DNA of 34,863 bases, taken from contig JAJPXQ010000060.1 of the NCBI GenBank assembly GCA_021205385.1, positions 1 through 34,863 of the forward strand. The letters are read 5' to 3'. Below the pieces are notes generated by a model, which saw only the letters and a program-made list of their open reading frames with translations, had not been told where the DNA came from and ran no database searches. Source of the stretch: Lachnospiraceae bacterium. Lineage in GTDB: Bacteria; Bacillota; Clostridia; Lachnospirales; Lachnospiraceae. Positions 2,254 through 24,960 of this stretch are shown here, piece after piece. Positions within the stretch are counted from its first letter, which is position 1; every line of letters begins with the position of its first letter. The translations under genes and the position numbers were made by a program.

Positions 2254-3471
2254 ATGGGAAATGAAAAACGAACACAGATAAATCGTTCCGGGCTGATCAT
2301 TTTGGGGATTTTTTTCCTGACGTCCGGCGGCAATGCAGTCAATTCTGTTCTTCAGAAAATAATTGAAGCATTTCCGGCCGCCGGTGCGGCGACGGTTCGC
2401 ATGGTATCTACACTGCCCAATCTGACCGGTATGGGGATCGGCCTGATTGCCGGCGCTACCCTTGGAAGGCGTCTAAGGTATCGAACGCTTTATCTGTTCG
2501 GTGTGATGGCCTTCGTCATCGGCGGTGTAGGACCGGCTCTGTTTCATAACAGTCTGGGCTTGATTCTCGTGTTCCGGGCAATCTTCGGTATGAGCCTGGG
2601 CGCGTTCAGCACCTGTAATGCTTATGTCCTTTCCACCCAGCCCGTCAGTATGCAGGCGAAGGTCGTCGGCTGGGGAGCTGTCTGTACGAATCTGGGAGCT
2701 GCGATTCTGCAGATGGCGAGCGGCACGCTGGCGGATATTTACTGGCCTTACGCCTTCTAGCCCTACGCCTCCGGGCTGGTGGTGATGATTTTTGTCCTGC
2801 GGCTTAAGGAACCGGCGCAGATTAATCCGGAGCTTTCAGCGAAACAGGAAGTCACGGAGACGAAAGCGGAGAAAGGGAAACTGGGGAAACGTGTATTTCT
2901 CTATGTGGGCATCAACTTTTTCGTGATGATCACCGCCGTACCGGTGATGACCGGTATGTCCACACTGGTGGCCGATAGGGGGTTGGGCGATTCCACAACT
3001 GTGGCCTTGATCCTGACAATCTGCCAGGCGGGAGGAATTCTCACGGGTCTGATTCTCGGGAAATTTGTCTCCGTACTGAGACGCTTCAGTATGCCGGTCG
3101 CACTTTTCGTCCAGGGGCTCGGGATTTTTGGCTGTCTGGCAGGACAGAACCTGGCGATGATCTGTATCGCGTCTCTGGTCAGCGGCATCGGCACGATCCT
3201 GGTGTCTTCTTTGAGCGCGACCTATTGCGGCCAGTCCACCAGCAAGGAGACGATTGCCCTGGCAACGTCGGTTTTGATGATCTCGACCCAGTGTGCCAAT
3301 TTCCTGTCCAGTTACTATATTGTACTGGCACAGTCTTTATTCGGCAGTATGTTCCGGACTGATGTGGAATGTGCGTACTTCCTGAGCAGCGTGCTCTATG
3401 TGATCGTGATCATTCTTACACTGGTGTTTAATGTCAATCCGAAACCGGTCGATCAGAACCAGTTTGCGTAA
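2254..3471 (+). pseudogene. Major facilitator superfamily transporter interrupted by an in-frame TAG
   Basis: The reading frame 2254-3471 would encode 405 aa, a normal 12-helix MFS length, but has a TAG codon at 2758-2760 (after residue 168, around the end of the N-terminal six-helix half). The frame continues without any other stop or shift to a TAA at 3469-3471, and both halves read as convincing MFS sequence (helix 1 'LIILGIFFLTSGGNAV'; the second half begins again with hydrophobic 'LVVMIFVLRL'). One base change, for example TTG Leu or TAC Tyr to TAG, explains it. It follows the alcohol dehydrogenase by 27 bases with Shine-Dalgarno GGAAGGATGAG. The intact protein would have exported or imported a small solute by an ion gradient. 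A recent nonsense mutation, a sequence error or suppression are all possible; a half transporter is unlikely to work. Confidence 0.75.
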
Positions 3472-5565: not shown

Positions 5566-7061
5566 GAAATTTTTTGAATTAGCAGATACTGACCGTTGTC
5601 TGCGAGAACCTCATAGTTCTCAAGTTCCGGATAATCTGCAAGGAAAGGAACGGAGAGAATCAGCAGCGCGTCATCCTCAGAAGCAAGAAACGCCTCCGCA
5701 CCGTCGTCCGCGCAGTCGAGATCCCCCTCCAGCAGGGCGAGCAGGCGCATGTTCTGTTCCCATTCGGTCGTGTTGGCGTAGAGGAAGGGATCGTAGGCAT
5801 CGAGATAGACCGTCGATCCGGCGAGCGCGCTGTCCCGGTCAAACTGTTCGATGACGAAGGTCTGCAGATCATTGGAGCGTGCACCGCGCACATTGTCCGT
5901 GTAATTCTCCCAGACAAAACAGATGCTCCCGGCTCCGGAGAGCAGTGCAGCAGCAAGCAGCAGGCCATATGGCGCCTTTGCAGAAGTAAAGAAGTGCGCC
6001 AGAAAGATTGCCGCAAGTATGCAAAGCGGGACAATGCAGGGGTAGACGTACCACATGAGTTTCGTCGATACGAGAGAAAAACTGCAGAGAGGTACGAAAA
6101 GCCAGAGCAGCAGACCGATCAGATCCTGACCGGCAGGCGGTGTGTCCTTCTTTCGCAGAAAGCGCACCCACAGGCAGAAGAGTCCGATCAGTACGATTAC
6201 GCTTAAGAATCCGTAAATATGATCGAAATTCCAGAAAATGGATGTCAGGTAGTAGGTGAAGGACGCGCCGTGCCCTTCGATGCCCCCCGATGCCGTCCGG
6301 CCGAGCAGGTCGGTTTCGACCATCTGCCGGAAGAACGCAAATCCGTCATAGCGAAAGCGAAGCGTCGCCCAGACCAGAATCGGGAGCAGTGCGCAGGCAA
6401 GAAAAAGCAGCATGCGCTTCCAGGGAATTCTCTTCAGCTCACCGCTCAGCAGGAGAAAGAGTCCGCCGATCGCGGCGATCATGAGCGCGTGGAAGCTTTT
6501 GCTTAGAAAAGCGAGGGAAAAACAAAGGCCACAGACGTAGATCCAGCGCTGATTTTCCCGGATTTTCAGCATTGCAAGCATCGCGAGCGTAAACAGCAGA
6601 AGGTAGAGACTGTCCGCATCCCCGGATCGCACCAGATGCGCCTTGAACGGAAAATAATTGGCGCAGAGGAAAATCATGGTCAGAAGCGAAGTCAGCTTTC
6701 CGTAACGCCGGGTAAAAAGTCCGGAGACGGCGGTTGTGATAAGATAGAAGAGTGCGGAAAAAAAACGCAGTCCCACGGCATTGTAGCCGAACAGTACGAA
6801 CCCCGCCGCGACAGTCAGAAACGAGAGCGGAGGCTTGACATTCCAGTAATCGGCCTCCCCACACCAGGTATTCACAAGAAAGTTCCCATTTTGCAGCATC
6901 TCGTAGGCGGAGACGCCGTGCCGCGCCTCATCCCAGGAGTCGATCACGCCGACGCCAAGACAGCGGAAGCACAGGAACGCACACAGCGCACACAGCAGTG
7001 CAAAGAAAATCCAGTAAAATTTTTCTGTCAGTCCGATCAGACCCTCATAAAAACGCCGCAT
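5553..7061 (-). CDS. GT-C family membrane glycosyltransferase (ArnT/PMT-like, GT39/GT83 type)
   Basis: 502 aa, very hydrophobic, with about ten to twelve membrane segments. The first external loop carries 'DSWDEARHG' (41-49), the acidic motif of lipid-phosphate-sugar-dependent GT-C enzymes, followed by 'KPPL' (76-79) and 'RSGDADSLYLL', both typical of the ArnT/PMT_2 group. Such enzymes transfer a sugar from a polyprenyl-phosphate donor to a glycan or protein on the outer face of the membrane. The C-terminal ~100 residues are soluble. A GGGTGAGGT ribosome site lies 8 bases before the ATG, and a promoter sits immediately upstream, giving a very short leader. It is divergent from the CotH gene and adjacent to the polysaccharide cluster, so a role in decorating a surface polymer is likely. 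Acceptor and sugar are unknown. Confidence 0.85.
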   Translation of the reverse strand: MRRFYEGLIGLTEKFYWIFFALLCALCAFLCFRCLGVGVIDSWDEARHGVSAYEMLQNGNFLVNTWCGEADYWNVKPPLSFLTVAAGFVLFGYNAVGLRFFSALFYLITTAVSGLFTRRYGKLTSLLTMIFLCANYFPFKAHLVRSGDADSLYLLLFTLAMLAMLKIRENQRWIYVCGLCFSLAFLSKSFHALMIAAIGGLFLLLSGELKRIPWKRMLLFLACALLPILVWATLRFRYDGFAFFRQMVETDLLGRTASGGIEGHGASFTYYLTSIFWNFDHIYGFLSVIVLIGLFCLWVRFLRKKDTPPAGQDLIGLLLWLFVPLCSFSLVSTKLMWYVYPCIVPLCILAAIFLAHFFTSAKAPYGLLLAAALLSGAGSICFVWENYTDNVRGARSNDLQTFVIEQFDRDSALAGSTVYLDAYDPFLYANTTEWEQNMRLLALLEGDLDCADDGAEAFLASEDDALLILSVPFLADYPELENYEVLADNGQYLLIQKISLQH

Positions 7062-7081
7062 AAGCCGTACCTCACCCGCTC

Positions 7082-7110
7082 ATTGTATCATGAGGAAATA
7101 AAAAAGTAAA
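7082..7110 (-). promoter_or_regulatory. Promoter of the GT-C glycosyltransferase
   Basis: Minus strand TTTACT (7110-7105), 17 bases, TACAAT (7087-7082) preceded by TGA (extended -10). The start of transcription would be about 14 bases before the ATG at 7061. Confidence 0.7.
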
Positions 7111-7128
7111 CGAGGCCTTCGTGGTCAG

Positions 7129-7157
7129 TTGCGAAACCGGCAAAGCCGGGTTATAAT
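7129..7157 (+). promoter_or_regulatory. Promoter of the CotH-family gene
   Basis: TTGCGA (7129-7134), 17-base spacer, TATAAT (7152-7157). The spacer holds an imperfect inverted repeat (AACCGGC, AAA, GCCGGGTT), a possible operator. The expected transcription start is within a base or two of the ATG at 7165, so the message may be leaderless. Confidence 0.7.
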
Positions 7158-7164
7158 ACAGATT

Positions 7165-9468
7165 ATGGTAAACAGAAACGAAAAACGGATCGCGGTTGCG
7201 GCGGCATTTCTGGCAGGAGCGTTGCTTCTGGTGCTGGTGCTGGTGATGAAAAATGCAGGCTTTGTCATTGCGGAAGAGAATGCAGGCGGGCTGGTGCTGG
7301 AGATTTACACGGTTGACGACTATCTTGGCTTTGTCTCGTCGGTCAACAGCGGAAATACTTATAAGGGCGAGTATGTGGAACTGTACGCAGACCTCGATTT
7401 TGCAGGAGTGACAGGGGAACTGATCTGCGGGAGCGAAGAGGATTCGGAGATTCATTTCGAGGGAACCTTTGACGGAAACGGACATCATCTGAAAAATATG
7501 GTGCTGGAGGGGACATCCAAGCCCGGCCTTATCCGCAATCTGGAGGGCGTTGTCTGCAATCTGGAAGTGGAGGGCGGCAGCGTCACAGCTGAGCTCTGCG
7601 GCGCCATTGCGTCGACGCTCAGTCTGGGCGGCTATATTGTAAACTGTGCGAGCAGCGCTGAGATTTACGGCAGCACGACAGACGGCATTGTCGGACAGAA
7701 TAATTCTCAGCTGTACAACTGCTGCTGGACGCTCGCGCAGGAGCAGGCTGATGCAGAAACGCTGAATCAGGGGCTTGGCGGGCTCGGGGGATCCTATGGC
7801 GTGGACGCCTGGTATTTCTGGGAAGAGACGGACGACGGTCTTTCCCTTACACAGAGGCAGGCGGACACGATCGACTCCATGGAGCTTGTGATTTCGATTG
7901 ATCTGCAGCGAACCACGCTGCAGGGCTACTATTCTGAGACGGAAGATGCGTGGTGTTTCGCGCTTCCGGCGGGTTATGCACAGCAGGAACTGAGTATTTA
8001 TGTGACATTTGCATCGGGAGACACGCTTACGCAGGAATATGGAGGAGATGGCGCAGCACTTTCCTTTTCGCATGACACTATCGGGTATTCGGTGGAGATT
8101 CTGGAAACGTCGGAGGTGTCGGTGCTGATGCTGGATCTGAGCGACGGCGCGGATATCAGCTGGCTGAACGAGGATAAGGAAAATACAGCGGGCGGCACCT
8201 TCCTGCTGCTTGGCTCAGACGGGACAATTCTTTCCGAGGGAGCTCTAGAGAGGGTCAAAGGGCGCGGAAACGACTCCTGGCGGGCTGCGAAGAAAAGCTA
8301 TGGGCTGAAATTTGCTGAGGAGCAGGATCTGCTCGGTATTGGTTCTTCGCAGAATTATGTATTGCTGGCCGGTTATCGGGACAATTCCCTGGCGGTTTAT
8401 AAGGTGACGCATGATCTGATAAAGGAGATCGGGATGGATTACGCGCCGGAGTCCGAGTTCGTGCATCTGTATGTGGAGGGCGAGTATCTGGGCATGTATC
8501 TTCTGGCCGGGAAGATTGAGGTCGGGGCGGAACGCTTTGATCTTAAGGATCTGGAGACAGAGACGCAGAAGGTGAACAGTAAAGATCTGGAGACTTACGA
8601 GATGGAGACCTGGTACGATGAGGACAGCTATGCCGCGCGTACCTGGTACAATCTTAAGAATTCGCCTGAGGATGTGACGGGCGGCTACATCCTGGAGATG
8701 GATAATGTGGATTATGATCCGACCGACAGCAATTTTGTGAGCGAGCGGCTGATCCGCTTTGTGCTGAGCAATATCACTGCGGCTTCCAGGGAAGAGGTGG
8801 ATTATATCGCGGAATTCTGGCAGGATTTTGAGGATGCGCTGTTTTCGGAGGACGGCTATAATGAAAAAGGAAAGTATTATACGGAATACATTGATCTCGA
8901 ATCCTTCGCGGACCAGTGGCTGCTCTACGAGCTGAACATGGAAAACAGTGTCAATTCCAGCGTTTATTTCTATAAAGATTCGGATGAAACAGGAGACGGG
9001 CTGCTGCACGCGGTCTGGGAGTGGGACGCGGAACATTCGCTGGTGGCAAGCCGCGATTATACCTGGAGCTGGTTCGCCAGCCAGAACTCGCTGCAGCCGG
9101 AGGGTTACTGGATGCAGCTCTACAGCCATGAGGATTTTGCGGAAATGGTTTATCAGGAGTGGACGGAAAAGTTTCTCCCCGCCATTGAGAAGGCGCTGGG
9201 GGAGTCTGAGAATGAGGATACAGACGGTATCCGTCCGCTTGACTGGTATCTTGAGACTTATGCAGCGGACGCAGAGATTGATGAGAGCCGCTGGACGGGG
9301 CGCGATTTTGAAAAGAAGGTAGAGACGATCCGGACGATCTACACCGCGCGCAAGGATTTCCTGACGAGGGCGCTGTCGCTGTACGACAGCGGGTACAGCT
9401 ACTTCTATGAGGAGGACGGCGTATTCTACGGCGTGACGGAGGAAGGGGAGGCTGTGGCACTGCCGTAG
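7165..9468 (+). CDS. CotH kinase family membrane-anchored protein
   Basis: 767 aa from the ATG at 7165. Residues about 8-30 form one hydrophobic anchor, so the bulk is extracellular. Residues about 40-190 include 'FEGTFDGNGHHL', a motif of beta-helix GLUG-like repeats. From about 355 onward it matches CotH: 'GRGNDSW' at 366-372 (nucleotide-binding Gly/Asn loop), 'YLGMYLL', 'GGYILEMDN' and 'VWEWDAEHS' at 617-625, the metal-binding Trp-x-Trp-Asp segment. CotH proteins are atypical protein kinases first known from spore coats, but many anchored members sit in surface polysaccharide loci. A frame extension to a TTG at 7129 exists, but that TTG is part of the -35 box and has no Shine-Dalgarno. No ribosome site precedes 7165 either, so a leaderless start is the best reading. 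rfbC follows after 65 bases with its own promoter. Confidence 0.82.
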   Translation: MVNRNEKRIAVAAAFLAGALLLVLVLVMKNAGFVIAEENAGGLVLEIYTVDDYLGFVSSVNSGNTYKGEYVELYADLDFAGVTGELICGSEEDSEIHFEGTFDGNGHHLKNMVLEGTSKPGLIRNLEGVVCNLEVEGGSVTAELCGAIASTLSLGGYIVNCASSAEIYGSTTDGIVGQNNSQLYNCCWTLAQEQADAETLNQGLGGLGGSYGVDAWYFWEETDDGLSLTQRQADTIDSMELVISIDLQRTTLQGYYSETEDAWCFALPAGYAQQELSIYVTFASGDTLTQEYGGDGAALSFSHDTIGYSVEILETSEVSVLMLDLSDGADISWLNEDKENTAGGTFLLLGSDGTILSEGALERVKGRGNDSWRAAKKSYGLKFAEEQDLLGIGSSQNYVLLAGYRDNSLAVYKVTHDLIKEIGMDYAPESEFVHLYVEGEYLGMYLLAGKIEVGAERFDLKDLETETQKVNSKDLETYEMETWYDEDSYAARTWYNLKNSPEDVTGGYILEMDNVDYDPTDSNFVSERLIRFVLSNITAASREEVDYIAEFWQDFEDALFSEDGYNEKGKYYTEYIDLESFADQWLLYELNMENSVNSSVYFYKDSDETGDGLLHAVWEWDAEHSLVASRDYTWSWFASQNSLQPEGYWMQLYSHEDFAEMVYQEWTEKFLPAIEKALGESENEDTDGIRPLDWYLETYAADAEIDESRWTGRDFEKKVETIRTIYTARKDFLTRALSLYDSGYSYFYEEDGVFYGVTEEGEAVALP

Positions 9469-9533: not shown

Positions 9534-10085
9534 ATGGGAAAGATCAAAGTAGAGACCTGTGAGATCGAAGGTCTGGAGATCATCACGCCGACCGTGTTCG
9601 GAGATGAACGCGGTTATTTCATGGAGACCTATAATTATAAGGATTACGCGGCGGCAGGTATCGACATGGAATTCGTGCAGGACAACCAGTCCGCGTCGAA
9701 GAAGGGTGTGCTGCGCGGCCTGCATTTTCAGATCCAGTATCCGCAGGACAAGCTGGTGCGCGTCGTGACGGGTGAGGTCTTCGACGTGGCGGTGGATCTG
9801 CGGCCCGGTTCGGCCACTTATGGAAAATGGTTCGGTGTGACGCTGTCTGCGGAGAATAAGAAGCAGTTCTTTATCCCGAAGAATTTTGCGCACGGCTTCT
9901 TCGTGCTCTCGGATTATGCGGAGTTTGCGTACAAGTGCACCGATTTTTATCACCCGAACGATGAGGGCGGCATTGCCTGGAACGATCCGGATATCGGGGT
10001 GGCATGGCCGATCCCGGAGGGTATGGAGCTCACGATTTCTGAGAAAGATCAAAAATGGGGCGGTCTTCGCTCGTTGAAACGGTAA
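9534..10085 (+). CDS. rfbC: dTDP-4-dehydrorhamnose 3,5-epimerase
   Basis: 183 aa, the usual length for RmlC/RfbC. It shows 'RGLHFQ' with the catalytic His64, Lys74 in 'QDKLVRV', 'AVDLR' with Asp88, 'AHGF' with His120, and the catalytic Tyr133 in 'FAYKC'. The enzyme epimerises dTDP-4-keto-6-deoxyglucose at C3 and C5 in the third step of dTDP-L-rhamnose synthesis, in the cytoplasm. The AGGAAGG site at 9518-9524 fits the ATG at 9534. The other rhamnose genes (rfbA, rfbB, rfbD) are not in this window, so the pathway must be completed elsewhere. As first gene of the export operon it suggests the polymer contains L-rhamnose or a related 6-deoxy sugar. Confidence 0.95.
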   Translation: MGKIKVETCEIEGLEIITPTVFGDERGYFMETYNYKDYAAAGIDMEFVQDNQSASKKGVLRGLHFQIQYPQDKLVRVVTGEVFDVAVDLRPGSATYGKWFGVTLSAENKKQFFIPKNFAHGFFVLSDYAEFAYKCTDFYHPNDEGGIAWNDPDIGVAWPIPEGMELTISEKDQKWGGLRSLKR

Positions 10086-10096: not shown

Positions 10097-10909
10097 ATGG
10101 TCCAAATGATACGGGATTTCTGGAAAAGTCGAGGGCTGATCTGGAAGCTGGCAAAAAATGATTTCAAGACCCGCTATGCCGGGTCCTATTTTGGTATTCT
10201 CTGGGCGATGGTCCAGCCGGTCATCATCGTGCTGGTCTACTGGTTCGTCTTCCAGATCGGACTCAACAGCGCGACGGCGCAGCTCAAAGAGGGCATCAGT
10301 GTGCCCTTTGTGCTCTGGCTGGTCAGCGGCATCGTACCATGGTTCTATTTCTCCGAGGCTCTGAGCAATGGGACGAATGCGCTTCTTGAGTATAATTATC
10401 TGGTGAAAAAGGTGGTCTTCAACATCGATATTCTGCCGCTCGTCAAGACGATCGCGGCGCTGTTTATTCACGCGTTTTTCGTGCTTTTTATGCTGCTTCT
10501 CTTCGCACTCTACGGTTATCTGCCGGGACTGAATACGCTGGGAATTATTTACTTCAGCGCGAGCCTCCTGATCTTTGTGACGGGGCTTTGTATGCTGACG
10601 AGCGCGCTGGTCGTCTTTTTCCGCGATCTCACCCAGATCATCAATATTTTCCTGCAGGTCGGCATCTGGATGACGCCGATTATGTGGTCCCTGGAGGATC
10701 TGCTGGCGAAATATCCGGTTCTGGCGATCCTGAAGCTGAACCCGCTGTGCTATATTGTCTACGGCTATCGTGCGGTGCTGTTCCGGACCGGCGGCATCCC
10801 GAGCCTTGGCTGGATGACTCTCTACTTCTGGGTCGTGACGGTGCTGTTGTGGGTGCTTGGCAGCAGGGTCTTCCGCAGGCTCAAAGTGCACTTCGCAGAT
10901 GTATTGTAA
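10097..10909 (+). CDS. ABC-2 type polysaccharide export permease (Wzm/TagG/RgpC-like)
   Basis: 270 aa from the ATG at 10097, which has AAGGAGA at 10084-10090; a longer reading from 10055 would overlap rfbC and lacks a ribosome site. The protein has about six membrane helices. Family marks are 'NDFKTRYAGSYFGILW' at the N-terminus, 'WLVSGIVPWFYFSEAL' in the middle, and 'FRDLTQIINIFLQVG' followed by 'NPLCYIVYGYR' near the end. It should form the channel that flips a completed, lipid-linked polysaccharide across the cytoplasmic membrane, paired with the ATPase that starts 9 bases downstream. Confidence 0.93.
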   Translation: MVQMIRDFWKSRGLIWKLAKNDFKTRYAGSYFGILWAMVQPVIIVLVYWFVFQIGLNSATAQLKEGISVPFVLWLVSGIVPWFYFSEALSNGTNALLEYNYLVKKVVFNIDILPLVKTIAALFIHAFFVLFMLLLFALYGYLPGLNTLGIIYFSASLLIFVTGLCMLTSALVVFFRDLTQIINIFLQVGIWMTPIMWSLEDLLAKYPVLAILKLNPLCYIVYGYRAVLFRTGGIPSLGWMTLYFWVVTVLLWVLGSRVFRRLKVHFADVL

Positions 10910-10918
10910 AGGAGTAAC

Positions 10919-12199
10919 ATGTCAGATACAGCGATCAGACTGGAACATGTCACAAAAATCTATAAACTGTATAACCGGAACCGCGATCGTCTCAAGGACG
11001 CGCTCGGCCTGACAAAGCAGAAGTGCTACAGTGAGCACTATGCGCTGCGCGATGTGAGCATGAGTGTGCAGGAGGGCGAGATGGTCGGCATTATCGGCGT
11101 CAATGGTTCCGGCAAGTCGACGATCCTGAAAATTATTACGGGGGTCTTAAGCGCGACCGAAGGCTCACTGGAGATCAACGGGCGTATTTCGGCGCTGCTC
11201 GAGCTTGGCGCGGGCTTCAATATGGAATATACCGGCCTTGAAAATGTGTACCTGAACGGGACGATGATGGGCTTTACAGAAAAGGAGATCGACGAGCGGC
11301 TCCCGGATATTCTCGATTTCGCGGATATCGGCGAGTTTATCCATCAGCCGGTCAAGACCTATTCGAGCGGTATGTTTGTGCGTCTGGCCTTTGCGGTCGC
11401 GATCAACATTGATCCGGAGATCCTGATTGTGGACGAGGCGCTCGCGGTCGGCGATGTGTTTTTCCAGGCAAAATGTTATCATAAATTCGAGGAGTTCAAA
11501 AAGCTGGGAAAGACCATTCTCTTCGTGAGCCATGACCTCACCAGCATCGCAAAGTACTGCGACCGCGTGATCCTGCTGAACAAGGGGGTAAAGCTGGCAG
11601 AGGGATCTCCGAAGGATATGGTCAATATGTATAAGAAGCTTCTCGTTCATCAGCTCGATGAGGAGACCCTCGAGGATGTGAGCGAAAAGAGCGATATCGG
11701 CGTCCACACGCAGGACGGCTCGGCATGGAAGGATCATTTTGAGACGAATCCGGCACTGCTGGACTACGGGGAGAAGACGGCGGAGATCGTGGATTTCTGT
11801 ATTATTGATCACTATGGGCAGTTCTCCAATATTATTGAGAAGGGAACCGTCTGCCAGGTGAAGGCAAAGCTGTATTTTCACGGACAGATCAAAAATCCGA
11901 TTTTTACGATCACGATCCGCAATAAGCAGGGAACTGACGTCACCGGTACGAACACGATGTTCGAACGGGTGGAGACCGGAACGGTCGAGGCGGGAGAGAC
12001 ACGCGTCGTGACCTATGAACAGCGGATCGACCTGCAGGGCGGAGACTATCTCATTTCGCTTGGCTGTACAGGCTATGTCGGAGATGAATTCAAGGTGTAC
12101 CACAGGCTGTACGATCTGGTGGGCCTGACGGTGCTCTCGGATAAGGATACCGTCGGCTTTTATGATATGAATTCGAAGATTACGGTTGAGAACGGATGA
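10919..12199 (+). CDS. ABC polysaccharide export ATPase with Wzt-like C-terminal domain
   Basis: 426 aa. The N-terminal ~240 residues are an ABC ATPase: Walker A 'GVNGSGKST' (60-68), signature 'YSSGM' (148-152), Walker B 'ILIVDEALAVGD' (168-179) and H-loop His205. Residues about 270-426 form a beta-rich domain of the Wzt C-terminal type ('IVDFCIIDHYGQFSNIIEKG', 'LQGGDYLISLGC'). In Gram-negative Wzt proteins this domain recognises the modified non-reducing end of the polymer and so couples chain capping to export; TagH and RgpD exporters of Gram-positives usually lack it. AAAGGAG lies just before the ATG at 10919. The neighbouring methyltransferase-kinase gene is a plausible maker of the cap that it reads. 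Confidence 0.93.
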   Translation: MSDTAIRLEHVTKIYKLYNRNRDRLKDALGLTKQKCYSEHYALRDVSMSVQEGEMVGIIGVNGSGKSTILKIITGVLSATEGSLEINGRISALLELGAGFNMEYTGLENVYLNGTMMGFTEKEIDERLPDILDFADIGEFIHQPVKTYSSGMFVRLAFAVAINIDPEILIVDEALAVGDVFFQAKCYHKFEEFKKLGKTILFVSHDLTSIAKYCDRVILLNKGVKLAEGSPKDMVNMYKKLLVHQLDEETLEDVSEKSDIGVHTQDGSAWKDHFETNPALLDYGEKTAEIVDFCIIDHYGQFSNIIEKGTVCQVKAKLYFHGQIKNPIFTITIRNKQGTDVTGTNTMFERVETGTVEAGETRVVTYEQRIDLQGGDYLISLGCTGYVGDEFKVYHRLYDLVGLTVLSDKDTVGFYDMNSKITVENG

Positions 12200-12221
12200 T
12201 TCATGTGGAAAGGTGGACGGC

Positions 12222-14342
12222 ATGCAGGAGCAGTTCGGTAAAGTGACAGTCACATATGATGAGACGGCGGCAGATTTTGACCGTGCGCTTCCGGAAGATG
12301 AGCGGATCGAAAGACTCGTAGATGAGAATTGTGATCTGCGGCGCATGGAGGCTCCCGGCTGGGAAGAGCTCTATCATTTATCGCATCTGCGTGCGAATCT
12401 GACGGAATGGCTTCCGGTCAGTAAGACGCATCGTGTGCTGGAGTTCGGCGCGGATACGGGGCAGCTGACGGGCGGCTTTCTTGGAAAGGTCTCTCAGGTG
12501 ATCTGCCTGGAGGAACGGCCCGGTCGCTGCCGGATTCTTGCAAAGCGCCACAGGAACGCGGAAAACTTAAGCGTTTACGCCGGAAATATCTGGAAGAATC
12601 TCGAGACGCTTTCCGGCGGCTTTGACTGGATCATTGCCCCCGGCGTCCTGGAGCAGGCAGGGCTCTGGTTCGCGGGTGAAAATCCGCAGGTGCAGGCTCT
12701 GCAGAAATTGAAGGCGCGGCTGAATCCGGGCGGTCATCTTGTACTCGCAGCGGACAACCGGCTGGGCCTCAAATACTGGGCCGGCGCGGCGAATCCGCAT
12801 AATGGCGTTTACTTTGACAATCTGGAAGGTCGGGGCTGCGGTTTCACAAAGCGGGAGCTGGAGCAGATCTTCACAGAGAGCGGCCTTGCCGACGCTGCGT
12901 TTTATTATCCATACCCGGAGCGCTGGTTCCCGGTGAGCATCTACTCTGATCACTGGCTGCCGAAGACCGGGGAGCTGAACCGGAATCTGCGCAATTTCGA
13001 AGGAGAGCGGCTTGTGCTCTTTGACGAGGAGAAAGTTTATGATCGGCTGGTCACCGAAGGCAGATTCCCGGAGTTTGCAAACGCTTTTCTGATCGTGACA
13101 GGTTCTCCTGTGGAAGACTGTCCGGTTTATGTAAAATATTCCAACGATCGCGCGGAGCGTTTTGCGATCCGCACGGATATTCTTGAAACTGCGGACGGAA
13201 AACAGGTACGGAAAGTGCCTGTCACGCCGCAGGCGAAGGAGCATATCGAACATATGAAGCGCCGCGAGGCGGCGCTGACCCGCCAGTGTGAGGCGGGCGG
13301 CATCCGCGTGAATCGCTGTGAACTGCAGGACGGCGCGGCGTATTTCGAGTTCCTGAAGGGGAGAACCTTTGAGGAACAGCTGGATACACTGCGGAATCAT
13401 AAGGATTATGCGGGCCTGGCCGCGGCGCTGCAGGACTATCGCAGGCTTCTGCTTAACTGTCTTGCGCCGGAGCTTGCACCGTTTGAAAAGAGCGCGCGAT
13501 TTAAGGAAATGTTTGGCGATCCCGCCTTTGAAAAGGCCTGTGAAGGAGCGCCCGTCAATAATCTCGACTGGATCTTCGGCAACCTGATGGAGACCTCTCA
13601 TGGCATGGAAGTCATCGATTACGAGTGGACCTTCGAGGTGCAGGTGCCGGTCGAATATCTGCTCTGGCGCGCGCTGTCGCTCTATCTGCACAGCAGAACG
13701 GATCTGCAGGGAATCGGCCTGATGGCGCAGATGGGCATTTCCTCCCGCGAGGAGGAGATCTTTGCGGAGATGGAGCATCATTTCCAGCTCTGGCTTCTGC
13801 AGGGCACGGTGACGATCGACGCACAGTATCTGTATACGGCGGGGCGCACGCTGCGTCTTGGTGATCTGCTCGACCATGCGGGCCGTCAGCGCATGCAGGT
13901 CTACGCCGATACCGGTGAAGGCTTTACGGAGAATGACAGCTGGTGGGTAGACACCGCTCCTGACAAGGAGGGATGCACGCGCCTGCGGCTTTTCCTGCCG
14001 GAGGGGACGAAAGCGCTGCGCATCGACCCGGCTGAGACGCCCTGCCTGGTGAGCGTGAAGCGCATCCTCGGCGAACTCGGCGGCAGCTACACCCTGGATT
14101 ACATCCACAATGGCCGCGAGCTGGAGCCGCAGGGCATCCTGTACTCCACCGACGATCCGCAGATCACGATTCCGGCCCTCACTGAGGGCACGCGTCAGGT
14201 CTGCCTCGAACTGACCGTGCAGGAGCTGAACCATGACACGGCTTTTGCCTGCATGAACCTGCTGAACCGCGTGCGCACAGCGGAACGCATCTACAATATC
14301 TGGCCGGTGCGGCTGCTGCGCCGGCTCCGGCACGGGCACTGA
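12222..14342 (+). CDS. Methyltransferase-kinase fusion, WbdD-like polysaccharide chain-capping candidate
   Basis: 706 aa from the ATG at 12222 (ribosome site AAAGGTGG at 12210-12217; an upstream TTG at 12186 lies inside the ATPase gene and has none). Residues about 60-230 are a class I SAM methyltransferase with motif I 'VLEFGADTG' (72-80) and 'DWIIAPGVLE' (135-144). Residues about 300-480 look like a kinase fold of the aminoglycoside/LPS kinase type: 'VYVKYSN' (302-308), a beta-3 'RKVPVT' with Lys331, a helix-C region with Glu340, a catalytic loop 'NLDWIFGN' (Asp449, Asn454) and the metal Asp466 in 'DYEW'. The last ~160 residues are beta-rich and unrecognised. E. coli WbdD has the same order, methyltransferase then kinase, and caps the O9a chain so that Wzt can bind it. 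The gene follows a Wzt-type ATPase and precedes a two-domain transferase, as expected for that system. The kinase assignment is my motif reading, not a search result. Confidence 0.72.
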   Translation: MQEQFGKVTVTYDETAADFDRALPEDERIERLVDENCDLRRMEAPGWEELYHLSHLRANLTEWLPVSKTHRVLEFGADTGQLTGGFLGKVSQVICLEERPGRCRILAKRHRNAENLSVYAGNIWKNLETLSGGFDWIIAPGVLEQAGLWFAGENPQVQALQKLKARLNPGGHLVLAADNRLGLKYWAGAANPHNGVYFDNLEGRGCGFTKRELEQIFTESGLADAAFYYPYPERWFPVSIYSDHWLPKTGELNRNLRNFEGERLVLFDEEKVYDRLVTEGRFPEFANAFLIVTGSPVEDCPVYVKYSNDRAERFAIRTDILETADGKQVRKVPVTPQAKEHIEHMKRREAALTRQCEAGGIRVNRCELQDGAAYFEFLKGRTFEEQLDTLRNHKDYAGLAAALQDYRRLLLNCLAPELAPFEKSARFKEMFGDPAFEKACEGAPVNNLDWIFGNLMETSHGMEVIDYEWTFEVQVPVEYLLWRALSLYLHSRTDLQGIGLMAQMGISSREEEIFAEMEHHFQLWLLQGTVTIDAQYLYTAGRTLRLGDLLDHAGRQRMQVYADTGEGFTENDSWWVDTAPDKEGCTRLRLFLPEGTKALRIDPAETPCLVSVKRILGELGGSYTLDYIHNGRELEPQGILYSTDDPQITIPALTEGTRQVCLELTVQELNHDTAFACMNLLNRVRTAERIYNIWPVRLLRRLRHGH

Positions 14343-14428: not shown

Positions 14429-16321
14429 ATGAGTAAAGAGACAAATCAGACGGATCTGCCGGAGTACCGCGACAAGCGCTTCGACCGGGTGCGCGGCACC
14501 TGGTACTGGAAGCTTTCGAAGCCGCTGCGGGAGATCGTGCATTTCTTTCAGAGGCTGCACGCGGCTTACATCCACTACGGCGGCGTGCGCGGCGTCTACC
14601 GGCGCTGGCGGCAGAAGCGCGGCGAGGCCACGAAGCGCGTCGACTTCGGAACGAAGAGTTTTCCGGATGCGGAGCAGAGAAAGCGCGAGGAGGAGACGGT
14701 GTTCCCACGGGATATCCGGTTCAGCGTGCTCGTGCCGTTGTACAATACGCCGGAGCGCTTCCTGCGGGAGATGATCGGGTCGGTGCAGGCGCAGACCTAC
14801 CGGAACTGGGAGCTGTGCCTAGCGGACGGCAGCGATGAAAAGCACCCGGAGGTGGGGCGGATCTGCGCGGAGTACCAGAAGGCAGACAGCCGCATCCATT
14901 ATCAGAAGCTGGAGAAAAATCTCGGCATTTCCGGGAATACGAATGCCTGCTTTGCGATGGCGACGGGGGATTTCATCGGCCTGTTCGACCATGACGATAT
15001 CCTGCATCCGAGCGCGCTCTACGAGTGCATGAAGGTGATCTGCGAGAAGGATGCGGACTATGTCTATACGGATGAACTGACCTTCGAGTCTCCGGATCTC
15101 GACCACATCATCGTGATGCACTTTAAGCCGGACTATTCGCCGGACAATCTGCGCGCGAACAATTACATCTGCCATTTCTCTGTGTTCGATGCGAAGCTGC
15201 TTGAAAAGACAGGCCTGTTCCGGCCGGAGTATGACGGCAGTCAGGACCACGACATGATCCTGCGGCTGACGGAGGAAGCGCGAAACGTACAGCATATTCC
15301 GAAAATACTGTATTACTGGCGCTCTCATCCGAATTCTGTGGCGGCGGACATCGGGGCGAAGACCTACGCGATCGACGCGGCGAAGCGCGCTGTGCATGAC
15401 CATATGCGCGACTACTACGGCATGGAGGTGGAAGTCGAGAGCACGCGGGCTTTCCCGACGATTTTCCAGATCAAGTATCCGATCACGGGGACGCCTCTGA
15501 TCAGCGTCCTGATCCCCAATAAGGATCATGTGACCGACCTGCGCCGCTGCATCTCGTCGATCACGGAGCGCTCAACCTGGAAAGATTATGAGATTATCGT
15601 GATCGAGAATAACAGCACGGAGCAGAGTATTTTCGATTATTACGCGGAACTGAAGGTGGATGCGCGCGTGCGCGTCGTCACCTGGGAGGGCGAGTTTAAT
15701 TATTCAAAGATCAACAACTTTGGCGCAGGCTTTGCGAAGGGAGAGTATCTGCTTTTCCTGAACAATGATACTGAGGTCATCACGCCCGACTGGATGGAGC
15801 AGTTGCTGATGTATGCGCAGCGCACGGATGTCGGCGCGGTCGGGGCGAAGCTCTACTACGCGGACAATACGATTCAGCACGCGGGCGTGGTCCTCGGACT
15901 GGGAGCGCACCGCTCTGCGGGGCATACGCATTACAAGATGCCGCGTGAGCACCTCGGGTATATGGGACGGCTGTGCTACGCGCAGGATGTGAGCGCGGTG
16001 ACGGCGGCCTGCCTGCTTGTGTCGCGGCAGATCTATGATGAAGTTGACGGCCTGGATGAGAGCTTCACGATATCGCTGAATGATGTGGATTTCTGCCTGA
16101 AGATCCGGGAAAAGGGCTATCTCAATATTTTTACGCCCTTTGCGGAGCTCTATCATTATGAGTCGAAGACGAGAGGGCTGGAGGAAGGCGAGAAGTTGCG
16201 CCGCTACGAGAAGGAGTGCGAGCATTTCCGGGAGAAATGGAAGGCTGCGCTGGAGGCGGGCGACCCGTATTACAATCCGAATTTTTCACTGGATTACTCG
16301 GATTTTACCCTGCGGTTTTAG
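14429..16321 (+). CDS. Two-domain GT2 family glycosyltransferase (rhamnosyltransferase-like)
   Basis: 630 aa. A basic N-terminal ~90 residues lead into two GT-A domains. Domain 1 (about 98-330) opens with 'FSVLVPLYN' and has the metal-binding 'FDHDD' at 186-190. Domain 2 (about 350-600) opens with 'ISVLIPNKD' and has 'NND' at 445-447, the metal-binding motif of GT2 polymer-forming rhamnosyl or mannosyl transferases; 'DVDF' and 'YHYES' near 555-585 complete the acceptor site. Two catalytic domains in one chain suggest two linkages, as in WbdA or WsaF-type polymerases. There is no membrane segment, so it should work at the inner face of the membrane on the growing chain. GTAGGAGAG precedes the ATG. 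The SGNH gene starts 9 bases downstream. Confidence 0.9.
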   Translation: MSKETNQTDLPEYRDKRFDRVRGTWYWKLSKPLREIVHFFQRLHAAYIHYGGVRGVYRRWRQKRGEATKRVDFGTKSFPDAEQRKREEETVFPRDIRFSVLVPLYNTPERFLREMIGSVQAQTYRNWELCLADGSDEKHPEVGRICAEYQKADSRIHYQKLEKNLGISGNTNACFAMATGDFIGLFDHDDILHPSALYECMKVICEKDADYVYTDELTFESPDLDHIIVMHFKPDYSPDNLRANNYICHFSVFDAKLLEKTGLFRPEYDGSQDHDMILRLTEEARNVQHIPKILYYWRSHPNSVAADIGAKTYAIDAAKRAVHDHMRDYYGMEVEVESTRAFPTIFQIKYPITGTPLISVLIPNKDHVTDLRRCISSITERSTWKDYEIIVIENNSTEQSIFDYYAELKVDARVRVVTWEGEFNYSKINNFGAGFAKGEYLLFLNNDTEVITPDWMEQLLMYAQRTDVGAVGAKLYYADNTIQHAGVVLGLGAHRSAGHTHYKMPREHLGYMGRLCYAQDVSAVTAACLLVSRQIYDEVDGLDESFTISLNDVDFCLKIREKGYLNIFTPFAELYHYESKTRGLEEGEKLRRYEKECEHFREKWKAALEAGDPYYNPNFSLDYSDFTLRF

Positions 16322-16330: not shown

Positions 16331-17560
16331 ATGAAGAGAGCAGAAAGGGAAAAGGTCATAAGGGGCGCTTATCGCAGTACGATCGTCGCACTGAGTATTT
16401 GCTGTGTATTCCTTGGCGCGGTGCTTGTAGTGCATGAGCTGGCAAGAGAGTATGAGGTGAGCGAACTCGAGGAGCAGCTTGAGGCGAAGGGGGTCGTTCA
16501 GAATGACGAGGGAATCTATGCCAGCGTCGAGCTGTTCCTGCCGGATGAGATTTATGTGGCCACAGGTGTGACGATTGAGCTCTACAACAGCCAGATATCT
16601 TCACTCGGGACACGCATTGAGGATTATAATGTAAAATGGACCTGTGCGGTCGGCAGGAACATGTCGCGCAAGTTTTCCATCACAGGGACGGAGAAGCTGA
16701 TCGGAGAATACCCGCTGATTTTCACGATTTTTGACGACAATGGCACGCAGGTGGCGACCGCGTCCACAACGCTGAAGGTCGTAGAAGCGCTGGGGGGAGA
16801 GGAGAACAGCTTTTCCCTGCTGACCATCGGTGACAGCCTCTCCTGCGATACAGCCACCTATGAGCGCCTGAATGAGCTGACCGATGACGGGATTATATAC
16901 ATGGGAACCCGCGGCGTGGGAGGCTCCCTTACCGAGGCGCGAAGAGGTTTCTCCGCAGCGGATTATCTGGCTGCCACACCCTATACGCAGGAGGAGCCGG
17001 AGGAGGAAGTGCAGCCGTTCTACAATGAGGAGACCGGCAGCTTTGACTGGGCCTATTATAAGGAGACGACCGGTTTTGAACCGGACGTGGTCGAGATTTT
17101 TCTCGGGACAAACGGCATCGACACCGATCCGGTGCCAAATGGCGACAATATCATTGCGATGGTGGAAAATATCCATGAGACCGATCCGGATCTGCCGATC
17201 TACCTGGTTCACACGATCTACCCGGCGAATCAGGACGGCATCGGTTCCTGGAGTAACTCTGACGGCTACGCGCTCTACGGAGATCGCTATAAATATGAGG
17301 AGGATCAGAAGGTCTTTTACCTGATGACCTACCTCGAGGAGACGCTGAAGGACGAGGACAATCTTTATTTCGTGCCGGCGGCGATCTGCCATGACAGTGA
17401 GAATAATTTCAACACCACGACCGAGACGGTGAACCCGCACTCGGAGGAGACGATCGAGGTGCCGGACAATGCCGTGCATCCGAACAGCGCGGGCTATCAG
17501 CAGATTGCGGACTGTCTCTACAGCGTGATCTGTGGAACAAAAGCAGAATGGGAGAATTAG
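16331..17560 (+). CDS. Membrane-anchored SGNH/GDSL-fold hydrolase-like protein
   Basis: 409 aa. One N-terminal membrane anchor at about residues 17-36 places the rest outside the cell. Residues about 60-155 form a beta-sandwich-like domain. The SGNH part follows: block I 'IGDSLS' with Gly167-Asp168-Ser169, block II 'GVGG', block III 'LGTNG', and block V 'DNAVHPN' with His383. In most relatives the last motif is Asp-x-x-His. Here Asp379 is one residue further away and Asn380 takes the usual place, so the triad may be altered. Such proteins often remove or add acetyl groups on polysaccharides; given its place after the glycosyltransferase it may edit the exported glycan. AGGAGAG sits right after the preceding stop and before this ATG. 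Confidence 0.8.
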   Translation: MKRAEREKVIRGAYRSTIVALSICCVFLGAVLVVHELAREYEVSELEEQLEAKGVVQNDEGIYASVELFLPDEIYVATGVTIELYNSQISSLGTRIEDYNVKWTCAVGRNMSRKFSITGTEKLIGEYPLIFTIFDDNGTQVATASTTLKVVEALGGEENSFSLLTIGDSLSCDTATYERLNELTDDGIIYMGTRGVGGSLTEARRGFSAADYLAATPYTQEEPEEEVQPFYNEETGSFDWAYYKETTGFEPDVVEIFLGTNGIDTDPVPNGDNIIAMVENIHETDPDLPIYLVHTIYPANQDGIGSWSNSDGYALYGDRYKYEEDQKVFYLMTYLEETLKDEDNLYFVPAAICHDSENNFNTTTETVNPHSEETIEVPDNAVHPNSAGYQQIADCLYSVICGTKAEWEN

Positions 17561-18006: not shown

Positions 18007-19377
18007 TCAGTTGTCGCTTTTCTGAATCTCAAAGCTATCCACAATCTCCCAGGTCTCCGCCTCATAGGTCGTGATAGTCAGTGCGGTCGGTGTAACCTGT
18101 ACGTCCGTGACCTCCGGAGCCTCGCGGTACTCGCTGAAGGCGATTTCGTTCTGCGCGGATGGGCGGTGGTACAGGCTGCCGCTCGAGGAGTTCAGCGTCA
18201 CATACATCGTGCCCTCCGGATCGACGGCAGGACTCTCATATTCGAGATAACTTCCGTCTGACTGGATGAAATACGAGCGGCTGTAAGCATGGTCGTGGCC
18301 GGTCATAACGAGATCGATGTCGTAAGCACTCGTGAAGGACAGAAAGTAGGGCCGGATATTGGCGGCATTTTCCATGTAGTCCTCGTAGGAATTGTACGGG
18401 GAGTAATGGCAGAGGATAATCCGCCAGCTCACGTCCGGGTTCGCCTCGCAGGCCTCTGCGATAAACTGTTCATGTTCGCCCCATTTCTCCGCGTCCATGA
18501 GGTCGAGCACGAGGAAGAGCGCGTTTCCGCGCACGAACCAGAAGTCGCCGTCGCTATCATCGTCGCAGGTGCCGTACTGTGTCTGGTTCGGCAGATAGTA
18601 GTGCTCGGAATACTGCGAGCCGCCGATCTCGTGGTTTCCCTTGACCGGGACGAGCGAGAGACTGTACAGAGCGGCCTGATTCAGAAACGCGTCGTACTGC
18701 TCGGTGTCGTCGAAATCATTGACCTGATCGCCGAGCGACACCAGAAAGCTTGTGTCTGAAAAATGATACTTGATCTTGTTCAGCACGCGCTTGAAGGTGG
18801 TCTTCTGATTGTCCAGCTCGTCGACCGGCTTGCCGAGCTGCGGATCGCCGAGCACGGTGAAGCGGAAGCTGTCCGAGTAGGCGGGCGTCGTATAGCTGTA
18901 GGCCGGCGACATGCCGTCCTCGTTTCCTACCTTATAAATATAGTCGGTTTCCGCTGCAAGACCACTCACTGTCGCGCGGTTAATATAATAACCGGATGTG
19001 ACTTCAGAAGCGAATGTGGAGACCGCATCGAAGGGAAGCGCATTCGCAAAATCCTCATCATCCGCTGTGGTCCACAGTACCTGACCGGCCTCCTCCGAGG
19101 GGGAATACCAGGTCAGATTTACCTCGTCTTCCTGTGCGCCGACCGTGACCGAGAGCCAGCGGATGGAGGTGGTCGTGATCAGCGTGGCGGAATATTCTGA
19201 CGCCGTGTTCCAGGTCTCTTCGCCAGGTTCCGGGGCAGCTTCCTCCTCAGCTTCCGTCTCTTCCGTCTGTGCACTGCTGTCAGCAGAGCCTGCTTCGTCA
19301 GAGGATGTGCTGCCGCAGGCCGCCAGTGATAAAATCATGGCGAGCGCCAGAAGGTTTGTAAATATTTTTCTTTTCAT
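18007..19377 (-). CDS. Lipoprotein metallophosphoesterase (purple acid phosphatase-like)
   Basis: 456 aa. The N-terminus is a lipoprotein signal with lipobox 'LAAC' (Cys21), followed by a Ser/Glu-rich linker to about residue 55. A fibronectin-like domain (about 60-165, 'YYINRATVSGLAAETDYIY') precedes a calcineurin-type phosphoesterase with the metal motifs 'LGDPQLG', 'SLGDQVND', 'KGNHE', 'LCHYSPYN' and 'GHDHAYSR'. This is the layout of bacterial purple acid phosphatase-like enzymes that release phosphate outside the cell using two metal ions. The gene has its own promoter (19493-19464), followed by a long hairpin in the leader. It lies 152 bases after the metal ATPase gene on the same strand. 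Confidence 0.9.
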   Translation of the reverse strand: MKRKIFTNLLALAMILSLAACGSTSSDEAGSADSSAQTEETEAEEEAAPEPGEETWNTASEYSATLITTTSIRWLSVTVGAQEDEVNLTWYSPSEEAGQVLWTTADDEDFANALPFDAVSTFASEVTSGYYINRATVSGLAAETDYIYKVGNEDGMSPAYSYTTPAYSDSFRFTVLGDPQLGKPVDELDNQKTTFKRVLNKIKYHFSDTSFLVSLGDQVNDFDDTEQYDAFLNQAALYSLSLVPVKGNHEIGGSQYSEHYYLPNQTQYGTCDDDSDGDFWFVRGNALFLVLDLMDAEKWGEHEQFIAEACEANPDVSWRIILCHYSPYNSYEDYMENAANIRPYFLSFTSAYDIDLVMTGHDHAYSRSYFIQSDGSYLEYESPAVDPEGTMYVTLNSSSGSLYHRPSAQNEIAFSEYREAPEVTDVQVTPTALTITTYEAETWEIVDSFEIQKSDN

Positions 19378-23605: not shown

Positions 23606-24034
23606 ATGGCAAAGAAAGTTACAGGTTACATCAAATTACAGATTCCTGCAGGGAAAGCAACACCGGCTCCCCCGGTAGGACCGGCGCTCGGCCAGCACGG
23701 CGTGAACATCGTGCAGTTCACGAAGGAGTTCAACGCGAAGACGGCTGACCAGGGCGACACCATCATTCCGGTAGTGATTACCGTGTATGCCGACAGAAGC
23801 TTCAGCTTCATTACCAAGACTCCGCCGGCAGCAGTTTTGCTGAAAAAGGCATGCGGACTCAAGAGTGCGTCCGGCACGCCGAACAAGGACAAGGTCGCGA
23901 CGATCAAGAGATCCGAAGTTCAGAAGATCGCTGAACAGAAGATGCCGGATCTGAATGCAGGCAGCATTGAAGCCGCCACCAGCATGATCGCGGGAACCGC
24001 GAGAAGCATGGGTATTACCGTCGTAGACGACTAA
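23606..24034 (+). CDS. rplK: Ribosomal protein uL11
   Basis: 142 aa, normal length. The N-terminal domain has '[20 protein letters not shown]' and the rRNA-binding C-terminal domain ends with 'AGTARSMGI'. L11 forms the GTPase-associated centre base with L10 and L7/L12. Ribosome site AGGAGGTG precedes the ATG. It is paired with rplA in the usual way. Confidence 0.98.
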
Positions 24035-24058
24035 AGGAACTGTTGCTGTAAGAAAGAT

Positions 24059-24086
24059 GTGGGAGGGAGAAACCCGCAATTACCAC
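24059..24086 (+). promoter_or_regulatory. L1-binding-like hairpin before rplA
   Basis: GTGG-GA-GGG, loop AGAAA, CCC-GCAATTA-CCAC: a compact hairpin with an asymmetric internal loop, the second copy of the motif at 23552-23587, placed directly before the AGGAGG of rplA. Confidence 0.6.
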
Positions 24087-24102
24087 CAGGAGGTTAAATA
24101 TT

Positions 24103-24792: not shown

Positions 24793-24799
24793 GTCAGGC

Positions 24800-24829
24800 T
24801 TGACAGGCGTGCATTGCCTGTGCTATTTT
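24800..24829 (+). promoter_or_regulatory. Promoter of rplJ-rplL
   Basis: Perfect -35 TTGACA (24800-24805), 18-base spacer ending TGC, TATTTT (24824-24829). Starts 10 bases after the rplA stop and directs the L10 leader. Confidence 0.75.
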
Positions 24830-24835
24830 AATACC

Positions 24836-24960
24836 GTTGAAGATGACTGACCGAAGACAGCAGGTGCTCTTTTGAGCGTAAGCAGTATACGCCTGCCGAG
24901 GAATGCATTCGTTTGAGAATGATGACATCCCTCCGTGTCCCCGGATCCGGAGGGATTTTT
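24836..24960 (+). ncRNA. Ribosomal protein L10 leader with attenuator
   Basis: The 5' leader of rplJL contains the conserved core of the L10 leader family: 'GAAGACAGCAGGTGC' near 24853-24867 and the pairing partner 'GCCTGCCGAGGAA' near 24891-24903. An intrinsic terminator follows: ATCCCTCCG (24927-24935) with CGGAGGGAT (24948-24956) and a T-run to 24960. Free L10(-L12 complex) is known to bind this leader in Firmicutes and stop expression. The remaining ~40 bases reach the rplJ ribosome site. Confidence 0.88.

Follow-up and report, generated by a model that had tools for sequence, protein, structure and literature searches.

A methyltransferase-kinase of the Klebsiella O7 ORF6 type beside a Wzm/Wzt exporter in a Lachnospiraceae genome and its predicted role in capping an exported glycan

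Cap-gated polysaccharide export is known from Gram-negative O antigens, for example that of Aquifex (PMC9445017). The closest described relative of the system treated here is the Klebsiella O7 protein ORF6, which combines a methyltransferase, a 223-residue AmiN-type kinase, a domain resembling a carbohydrate-binding module (CBM), a coiled coil and two glycosyltransferase family 2 (GT2) modules (PMC11231755). ORF6 puts a methylphosphate on the terminal rhamnose and is a demonstrated terminator, its D441A mutant leaving the acceptor unmodified (PMC11231755). WbdD of Escherichia coli O9/O9a acts in a similar way, as it phosphorylates and then methylates the chain end, whereupon polymerisation stops; it carries a eukaryotic-type kinase and a coiled coil (PMC3482155). 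Here we examine a 34,863-nucleotide contig of a Lachnospiraceae bacterium (JAJPXQ010000060.1 of assembly GCA_021205385.1; this whole stretch is referred to as the window), in which a methyltransferase-kinase gene at 12222-14342, abbreviated MTK together with its product, adjoins a Wzm/Wzt exporter. As judged by its sequence, MTK belongs, as a Gram-positive representative, with the methyltransferase-kinase terminators of the Klebsiella O7 ORF6 type and not with WbdD. We consider it quite probable that the operon serves to synthesise, cap and export a lipid-linked glycan that contains rhamnose, with MTK as an ORF6-type terminator that phosphorylates the chain end and the Wzt CBM reading the cap. 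The features on which this reading depends are as follows (residue limits of the methyltransferase-like and kinase domains are alignment limits; ORF, open reading frame; SAM, S-adenosylmethionine).

10919..12199, + strand: wzt, ATPase with a C-terminal carbohydrate-binding domain, 426 amino acids (PF00005, E 1.5e-22; PF14524, E 1.7e-36)
11762..12169, + strand: Wzt_C carbohydrate-binding domain, residues 282-417 (Pfam Wzt_C match)
12222..14342, + strand: MTK, predicted ORF6-O7-type chain terminator with methyltransferase-like, kinase and C-terminal domains, 706 amino acids (the longest ORF starts at 12186)
12345..13100, + strand: methyltransferase-like domain of MTK, residues 42-293 (sub-cut-off Pfam matches; profile match to a Citrobacter protein)
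12441..12461, + strand: degenerate SAM motif I of MTK, residues 74-80 (Asp in place of the second Gly in nine of nine clade rows)
13107..13796, + strand: predicted kinase domain of MTK, residues 296-525 (kinase profiles, invariant residues)
13566..13619, + strand: predicted kinase catalytic core of MTK, D449 to D466, D-x4-N ... I-D-x-E-W (spacing as in E. coli ThiK and RfaY)
13887..14225, + strand: C-terminal domain of MTK, residues 556-668 (positional counterpart of the CBM-like domain in ORF6-O7)

With regard to the exporter, the Wzt_C domain fused behind the ATPase scored 125.8 bits against a Pfam cut-off of 30.4, and the window wzt gave the sole Wzt_C match in its own genome. The protein is 38% identical along its length to Wzt of the E. 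coli HS O9 cluster (E 9e-91), and its best matches in the PDB were a chain named 'ABC transporter' (8dku), followed by TarH/TagH. A sequence-only reading of this DNA had placed a Wzt-type C-terminal domain on the ATPase and had chosen that domain beforehand as a point for refutation; the profile match bears the domain out. In this respect the exporter resembles the Wzm/Wzt transporters with a carbohydrate-binding domain from Aquifex aeolicus and, as described in the same paper, E. coli O9a (PMC9445017), from which it differs by its Gram-positive host without lipopolysaccharide. The top two NCBIfam models for the ATPase were of the TagH type, which, together with a degenerate methyltransferase motif in MTK (see below), would suit a wall-polymer cluster with export of the teichoic acid kind, in which MTK has decayed or is non-functional. 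Both models stayed under their cut-offs and matched the ATPase part only (residues 4-245), whereas the window Wzt has the further Wzt_C domain; an unbroken MTK ORF is present in the window and eight of its nine close relatives (L032-L040), and the kinase residues described below are invariant, all of which makes a decayed gene highly improbable. The ninth relative, L033, carries an MTK homologue split into two ORFs (553 and 149 amino acids; positions 6964-9138) in a draft assembly.

The relation of MTK to ORF6-O7 was traced through two plasmid records that were found with MTK as query and encode proteins of Citrobacter braakii and Pseudomonas asturiensis. The Citrobacter gene is preceded by rmlBACD-type genes, a transposase gene and genes for an ATP-binding cassette (ABC) permease and ATPase, and is followed by glycosyltransferase genes; the Pseudomonas protein (locus L043) has an ABC permease and ATPase upstream and is fused to GT2 modules. 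The ATPases beside both proteins match our own Wzt CBM profile. MTK aligned to the Citrobacter protein by hhalign with probability 100 and E 5.7e-41 over 421 columns that include the kinase region. In the Pseudomonas homologue, the six published SAM-binding residues of ORF6 (Y28, Y66, G91, G93, E112 and Y158; PMC11231755) stand at exactly the published numbers (six of six), and its catalytic Asp is at 443, the published one being D441 (PMC11231755), with D449 and N454 of MTK aligning to D443 and N448. When the kinase profile was built without the two proteobacterial rows, the kinase regions of the Pseudomonas and Citrobacter proteins ranked first and second among 167 (157 and 158 columns, probability 86.9 and 14.1). 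The Citrobacter profile match, the Pseudomonas residue numbers and these two ranks together argue that MTK is of the ORF6 type. A search of E. coli genomes with the Citrobacter gene gave no match.

MTK and ORF6-O7, as far as the latter is described in PMC11231755, have in common the order of a methyltransferase, a kinase of about 223 residues and a CBM-like domain, an APH/AmiN-type kinase, and a cluster with rml, wzm and wzt. Moreover, five loci of the window family (L045, L048, L062, L084 and L113) and the Pseudomonas locus share with ORF6 the fusion of the kinase to two GT2 modules. They differ in that the host of the window is Gram-positive, that no long coiled coil was detected, that the GT2 pair is encoded by a separate gene and that the clade of the window lacks three of the six SAM-binding positions. 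The ORF6 relatives named in PMC11231755 are alpha- and gammaproteobacterial, cyanobacterial and, in one case, archaeal, and the terms 'Gram-positive' and 'Firmicutes' are absent from its main text.

The sequence-only reading had instead compared MTK with WbdD, and a true WbdD orthologue would have a eukaryotic-type kinase and a coiled-coil ruler. The two proteins do share the order of methyltransferase and kinase, their operon neighbours are similar, and WbdD likewise relies on an Asn and an Asp (N356 and D369) for Mg (PMC3482155). To test orthology, MTK was compared with the E. coli HS O9 protein that a match to PDB chain 4azs identifies as WbdD: the best BLASTP E was 0.69, the hhalign alignment was confined to a stretch of the methyltransferase (96 columns, probability 64, E 6.4e-5), and with the kinase profile WbdD ranked 9th of 165 through a match at its residues 14-41, outside its kinase. 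In addition, a crude heptad coil score passed its threshold in WbdD (473-597) and stayed just under it in the window MTK. Kinship with WbdD beyond a methyltransferase stretch was thus not borne out, and an orthologue of WbdD, a reading that is largely refuted, is very improbable.

The kinase-like fold that the sequence-only reading had based on Lys331, Asp449, Asn454 and Asp466 was examined in alignments of the family. These four residues were invariant in 25 rows, consisting of the window and 24 full-length relatives from 39 loci (L003-L041; split or partial ones, including L033 and L041, were excluded). In a 47-row kinase alignment, in which two rows from proteobacteria were placed by position, R310, T318, D449, N454, E468 and W469 were invariant, and K331 and D466 were present in at least 90% of the rows; alignment A4 leaves out the near copies L032, L033, L034 and L036 and the partial L055, and includes L043 and L044 by position. 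The conservation holds across proteins down to about 30% identity and is therefore not due to chance. Of the 22 NCBIfam families listed for kinase members, nine were kinases by manual count, with a Bud32 model in seven members and a thiamine kinase model in six (best E 1.4e-4); Pfam gave no such excess. Searching the PDB with the kinase profile yielded 17 matches, 15 of them named kinase or phosphotransferase, nine of these 15 being near copies of JAK1. Among 165 E. coli proteins used as a decoy test, ThiK and RfaY took ranks 1 and 2, each with a probability near 5%, and D449, N454 and D466 lie at the distances (5 and 17 residues) found in ThiK and RfaY, the D-x4-N and I-D elements being in register in the profile alignments. 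A single-protein phmmer search of the PDB with MTK gave seven matches up to E 1 (best E 0.012, YkvR), and of the 91 PDB matches of a full-protein profile, the best 60 all lay within the methyltransferase part. Taken together, direct sequence comparison is suggestive of a kinase at about residues 296-525, and the assignment through homology to ORF6-O7-type proteins is stronger. The proposed residues have thus held up, direct matches to kinase families being weak.

The occurrence of MTK together with the Wzt CBM was surveyed in 150 genomes of the family, one per genus. MTK was found in 81 of them (the matches in G010 and G016 being weak) and Wzt_C in 94; 78 genomes had both, three MTK only, 16 Wzt_C only and 53 neither (Fisher P 2e-22). 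One MTK place was counted per genome, either the best match or the methyltransferase part of a split gene. All 77 genomes with a strong Wzt_C match (1e-34, a cut chosen after the list had been seen) contained MTK, within 5 kb in 74 of them and on another contig in three, and four MTK genomes had no strong Wzt_C. Neighbourhoods were compared in 40 loci, taken by score from the top of the 80 other MTK genomes, which biases the counts towards clear cases. By script, a wzt with CBM lay directly upstream of MTK in 36 of the 40 (37 with L083, whose orientation the script had misread), wzm at most three genes upstream in 36, rmlC at most four genes upstream in 23, and GT2 modules in the MTK gene or the next three genes in 31; in L053 the CBM-bearing wzt was one gene further away. 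The methyltransferase and the kinase formed one ORF in 28 loci and were split in 12, and in four the script found the kinase fused to GT2 modules, fusions which tie the kinase to the polymerase. In a phylum-wide search, 281 of 398 genomes matched at E 1e-3, most of the matches listed being short ones to methyltransferase motif I; below 1e-30 there were 13 of 398, including four of the five genomes of the window family.

The distances of both the methyltransferase and the kinase tracked those of the Wzt CBM when the ATPase was accounted for (partial rho 0.43 each, permutation P 0.001, 37 loci), and those of the ATPase given the CBM did not (-0.05, P 0.67, and 0.10, P 0.16, respectively). With RmlC as control, the same contrast between CBM and ATPase appeared in 23 loci. 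The co-variation of MTK with the CBM gives indirect support for the predicted binding of the cap by the Wzt CBM.

Several observations, the late choice of the cut for a strong Wzt_C match among them, weigh against the reading of MTK as a kinase-bearing ORF6-type terminator whose cap is read by Wzt. Wzm given the CBM also co-varies with MTK (0.22, P 0.01; 0.28, P 0.001), and the CBM is therefore not a unique partner. The window's own kinase region matched no Pfam kinase family, and of 47 members two matched Pfam APH (best E 0.0016), in a list of 40 Pfam families most of which are unrelated. The best E that the kinase profile reached in the PDB was 0.032. In the decoy test rank 3 went to a glycosyltransferase, and apart from WbdD at rank 9, YniA was found at 17, RfaP at 36, SelO at 60 and SrkA at 158 of 165. 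Outside the clade of the window, the rows with a residue at the catalytic position had Asp in 34 of 35 and Asn in one. The kinase-region match to Citrobacter is weak when taken alone, and a plain kinase hidden Markov model (HMM) missed the kinase regions of both the Citrobacter and the Pseudomonas protein. Finally, the tie to ORF6-O7 itself runs through residue numbers, operon layout and the two homologues.

MTK might also modify internal residues, side groups or a lipid-linked primer without being a terminator, the Wzt CBM then reading something else. Such a role would agree with two of the 40 loci, L065 and L078, where a CBM-bearing Wzt is missing next to MTK (in the case of L078, a different contig of the genome encodes one), and with L117 and L118, where the Wzt accompanying MTK has no more than the length of the ATPase. 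The presence of MTK in every genome with strong Wzt_C, the co-variation of MTK with the CBM and the demonstrated role of ORF6-O7 as a terminator (PMC11231755) speak against it, and we regard it as unlikely. At L065, L117 and L118, where the Wzt near the MTK homologue is of ATPase length (249-258 amino acids, no CBM match), export may not be cap-gated. SAM-binding positions are also changed in two of these three loci, L065 and L117.

For the terminator reading, the chemical nature of the cap depends on the methyltransferase half of MTK. Its N-terminal part matches class I methyltransferase families, all six Pfam matches up to E 1 being under the curated cut-offs (the best were Methyltransf_23 with 24.7 against 27 and Methyltransf_12 with 24.6 against 30), so that the methyltransferase motif reported by the sequence-only reading at residues 72-80 is present but degenerate. 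Motif I of class I SAM methyltransferases is E/D-x-G-x-G-x-G (PMC11231755), from which the E-F-G-A-D-T-G of the window departs, the second Gly being Asp in all nine rows of the window clade (the window and eight relatives; L033 and L041 were left out). In the same nine rows the equivalents of Y28, G93 and Y158 among the published ORF6 SAM-binding residues are lost, whereas those of Y66, G91 and E112 are kept, as are Y51, G76, G80 and E97. In the 52 rows outside the clade, Y28 is found in 46, G93 in 48 and Y158 in 46. Of 46 near-invariant positions in the N-terminal and methyltransferase parts, 12 are changed in all nine clade rows, as compared to none of 10 in the kinase and one of four in the linker; by counts alone, the contrast between methyltransferase and kinase is modest. 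In Wzt of the same clade, the CBM shows conservative changes at three of 35 near-invariant positions, and the ATPase shows no change at any of 120. The clade forms one group with SH-aLRT support of 100, nested among members with the full motif (in a quick tree that gave long-branch warnings for some neighbours), and the loss of the motif therefore looks derived. In a separate locus, L061, much of the motif is also lost and no Pfam methyltransferase match was found at 0.001.

Judged by these positions, the methyltransferase half of MTK looks worn out in the clade of the window, and methylation of the chain end, as the sequence-only reading had it, is doubtful there. Since three of six SAM-binding positions are lost while the kinase residues stay, the cap may be a bare phosphate, and a phosphate cap without methyl is a live possibility in this clade. 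On the other hand, the altered methyltransferase could still bind SAM and methylate the phosphate as in Klebsiella O7, giving a full methylphosphate cap. The residues kept in all nine rows and the motif retained by most other family members would agree with this, and among five divergent clade members the mean identity is 0.636 in the methyltransferase domain versus 0.619 in the kinase, so that the domain, conserved as well as the kinase, is not simply rotting. The lost positions, the changes concentrated outside the kinase and the sub-cut-off Pfam matches argue against it, and we give the methylphosphate cap somewhat less than an even chance; being a sub-case of our preferred explanation, its odds overlap with those of the latter. 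It is about equally conceivable, again falling a little short of an even chance, that in one branch of the Lachnospiraceae the terminator consists of a kinase and a dead but conserved methyltransferase, with a bare-phosphate end read by Wzt and no coiled-coil ruler. If so, the MTK family could dispense with the methyltransferase but not with the kinase.

The C-terminal domain of MTK corresponds to the CBM of ORF6-O7 by position only. In 31 of 40 loci our own HMM detects it C-terminal to the kinase within a single ORF. The same type of domain also precedes glycosyltransferase domains, occurs doubled or lies in a separate protein (L112 (G368), L111 and L049), and may therefore serve quite generally as a module for binding glycans. 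With a crude heptad score of our own, no long coiled coil was found over threshold in the window MTK (maximum 0.41 against 0.42), and WbdD was above threshold in three stretches at 473-597 and once, probably falsely, at 139-166. It should be underlined that the threshold of 0.42 and the domain limits were set by the analyst and that two of 12 decoys passed (0.51 and 0.52), which makes the score blunt. Short C-terminal coils appeared in some MTK relatives by the same score. The length control proposed by the sequence-only reading is thus unsupported by a ruler-type coil in the window MTK.

The operon is a run of six genes on the + strand, namely rmlC, wzm, wzt, MTK, the gene of a two-domain GT2 and a GDSL-like gene, with gaps of 9 to 86 bases between neighbours as calculated from their coordinates. 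It lies between a CotH-like and a phosphoesterase gene. The genes on either side of wzt and MTK are listed here.

9534..10085, + strand: rmlC, dTDP-4-dehydrorhamnose 3,5-epimerase (TIGR01221, E 9e-77, above cut-off; PF00908, E 1.3e-73)
10097..10909, + strand: wzm, ABC-2 permease of the polysaccharide exporter (PF01061, E 8.1e-13; a longer ORF starts at 10055)
14429..16321, + strand: two-domain GT2 glycosyltransferase, candidate polymerase (PF00535, E 2.3e-43, two stretches)
16331..17560, + strand: GDSL/SGNH-like protein (PF13472, E 3.8e-07, just under cut-off; in all nine of L032-L040)

The ORFs and their Pfam and NCBIfam matches thus confirm the two-domain GT2 and the rmlC beside exporter and MTK. 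Likewise, a gene of the methyltransferase-kinase type adjoining a Wzm/Wzt exporter in a Gram-positive lineage was correctly recognised from the sequence alone, as seen from the ORFs, the Wzt_C match, the invariant residues and the relatives. Nine of ten named MTK relatives are Lachnospiraceae records, at most 94% identical, and fit the Gram-positive setting; the tenth is labelled Clostridiaceae. Elsewhere in the same genome there are six PF02397 matches (two of them being neighbouring pieces on C77), one PF00953 match, a strong RmlD match and one LytR-CpsA-Psr match.

From family membership we infer the following course of events. Priming would probably be carried out by a phosphoglycosyltransferase encoded outside the operon, for which the PF02397 and PF00953 proteins are candidates, and the GT2 pair would extend the lipid-linked chain in the cytoplasm with dTDP-rhamnose among its donors. 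The kinase domain of MTK would then phosphorylate the non-reducing end and elongation would stop, after which the C-terminal domain of Wzt would read the modified end and Wzm/Wzt export the chain; the LytR-CpsA-Psr protein is a candidate ligase. The action of MTK on the chain end, the reading of the cap by Wzt, rhamnose as the sugar and the chemical state of the cap are the parts of this scheme that we infer. The logic of cap, reading and export, already put forward in the sequence-only reading, is probably right in view of the Wzt_C domain, the linkage of MTK and the ORF6-type homology; what did not stand are WbdD as the relative, the ruler and the methylation.

Among Gram-positive bacteria, partial precedents exist. 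The S-layer glycan of Clostridioides difficile Ox247 comes with a rhamnose pathway and an ABC exporter, and a modified phosphate on the terminal rhamnose has been proposed to terminate its chain (PMC6254364); it differs in that the phosphate is interpreted as cyclic, and the sections of PMC6254364 that deal with it do not name the capping enzyme. In Geobacillus stearothermophilus, WsaE joins a methyltransferase to two rhamnosyltransferase domains, and Wzt is predicted to bind the capped chain (PMC2943079); here the cap is a 2-O-methyl group and no kinase is described in the sections of PMC2943079 on this enzyme. The Ruminococcus gnavus glucorhamnan (PMC10112845) was considered as a possible type of product and is a candidate only. 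In the open-licence literature, our searches gave no account of the ORF6 type in Gram-positives, of how widespread it is in Lachnospiraceae or of the decay of its methyltransferase, nor a paper joining Lachnospiraceae, Wzt, polysaccharide and methyltransferase, and among the matches listed there for Lachnospiraceae with Wzm or Wzt nothing was on point. If our reading is correct, about half of the sampled genera of a dominant gut family (81 of 150) would use cap-dependent polysaccharide export, a mechanism whose details come mainly from O antigens of Gram-negative bacteria, and surface glycans of gut commensals would carry an unrecognised phosphate mark. The MTK type would also be a candidate enzyme for the phosphate cap in C. 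difficile Ox247, and natural terminators with a worn methyltransferase would raise the question of whether phosphate alone ends the chain and opens the exporter.

Some further observations concern single loci and the surroundings of the operon. In L077 (G102) an ORF of 1890 residues contains methyltransferase and kinase matches, its remainder being without a match to our own profiles. The operon of the window is flanked by the CotH-like protein at 7168-9468 and a purple-acid-phosphatase-like phosphoesterase at 18007-19377, and it ends about 6 kb before a block from ribosomal protein L11 to rpoB-rpoC (23606-33653), a position that we judge to be unusual for a surface-glycan locus. Further upstream, at 2254-3471, a major facilitator superfamily transporter is present as two consecutive ORFs (2254-2760 and 2779-3471), possibly owing to a frameshift or an assembly error.

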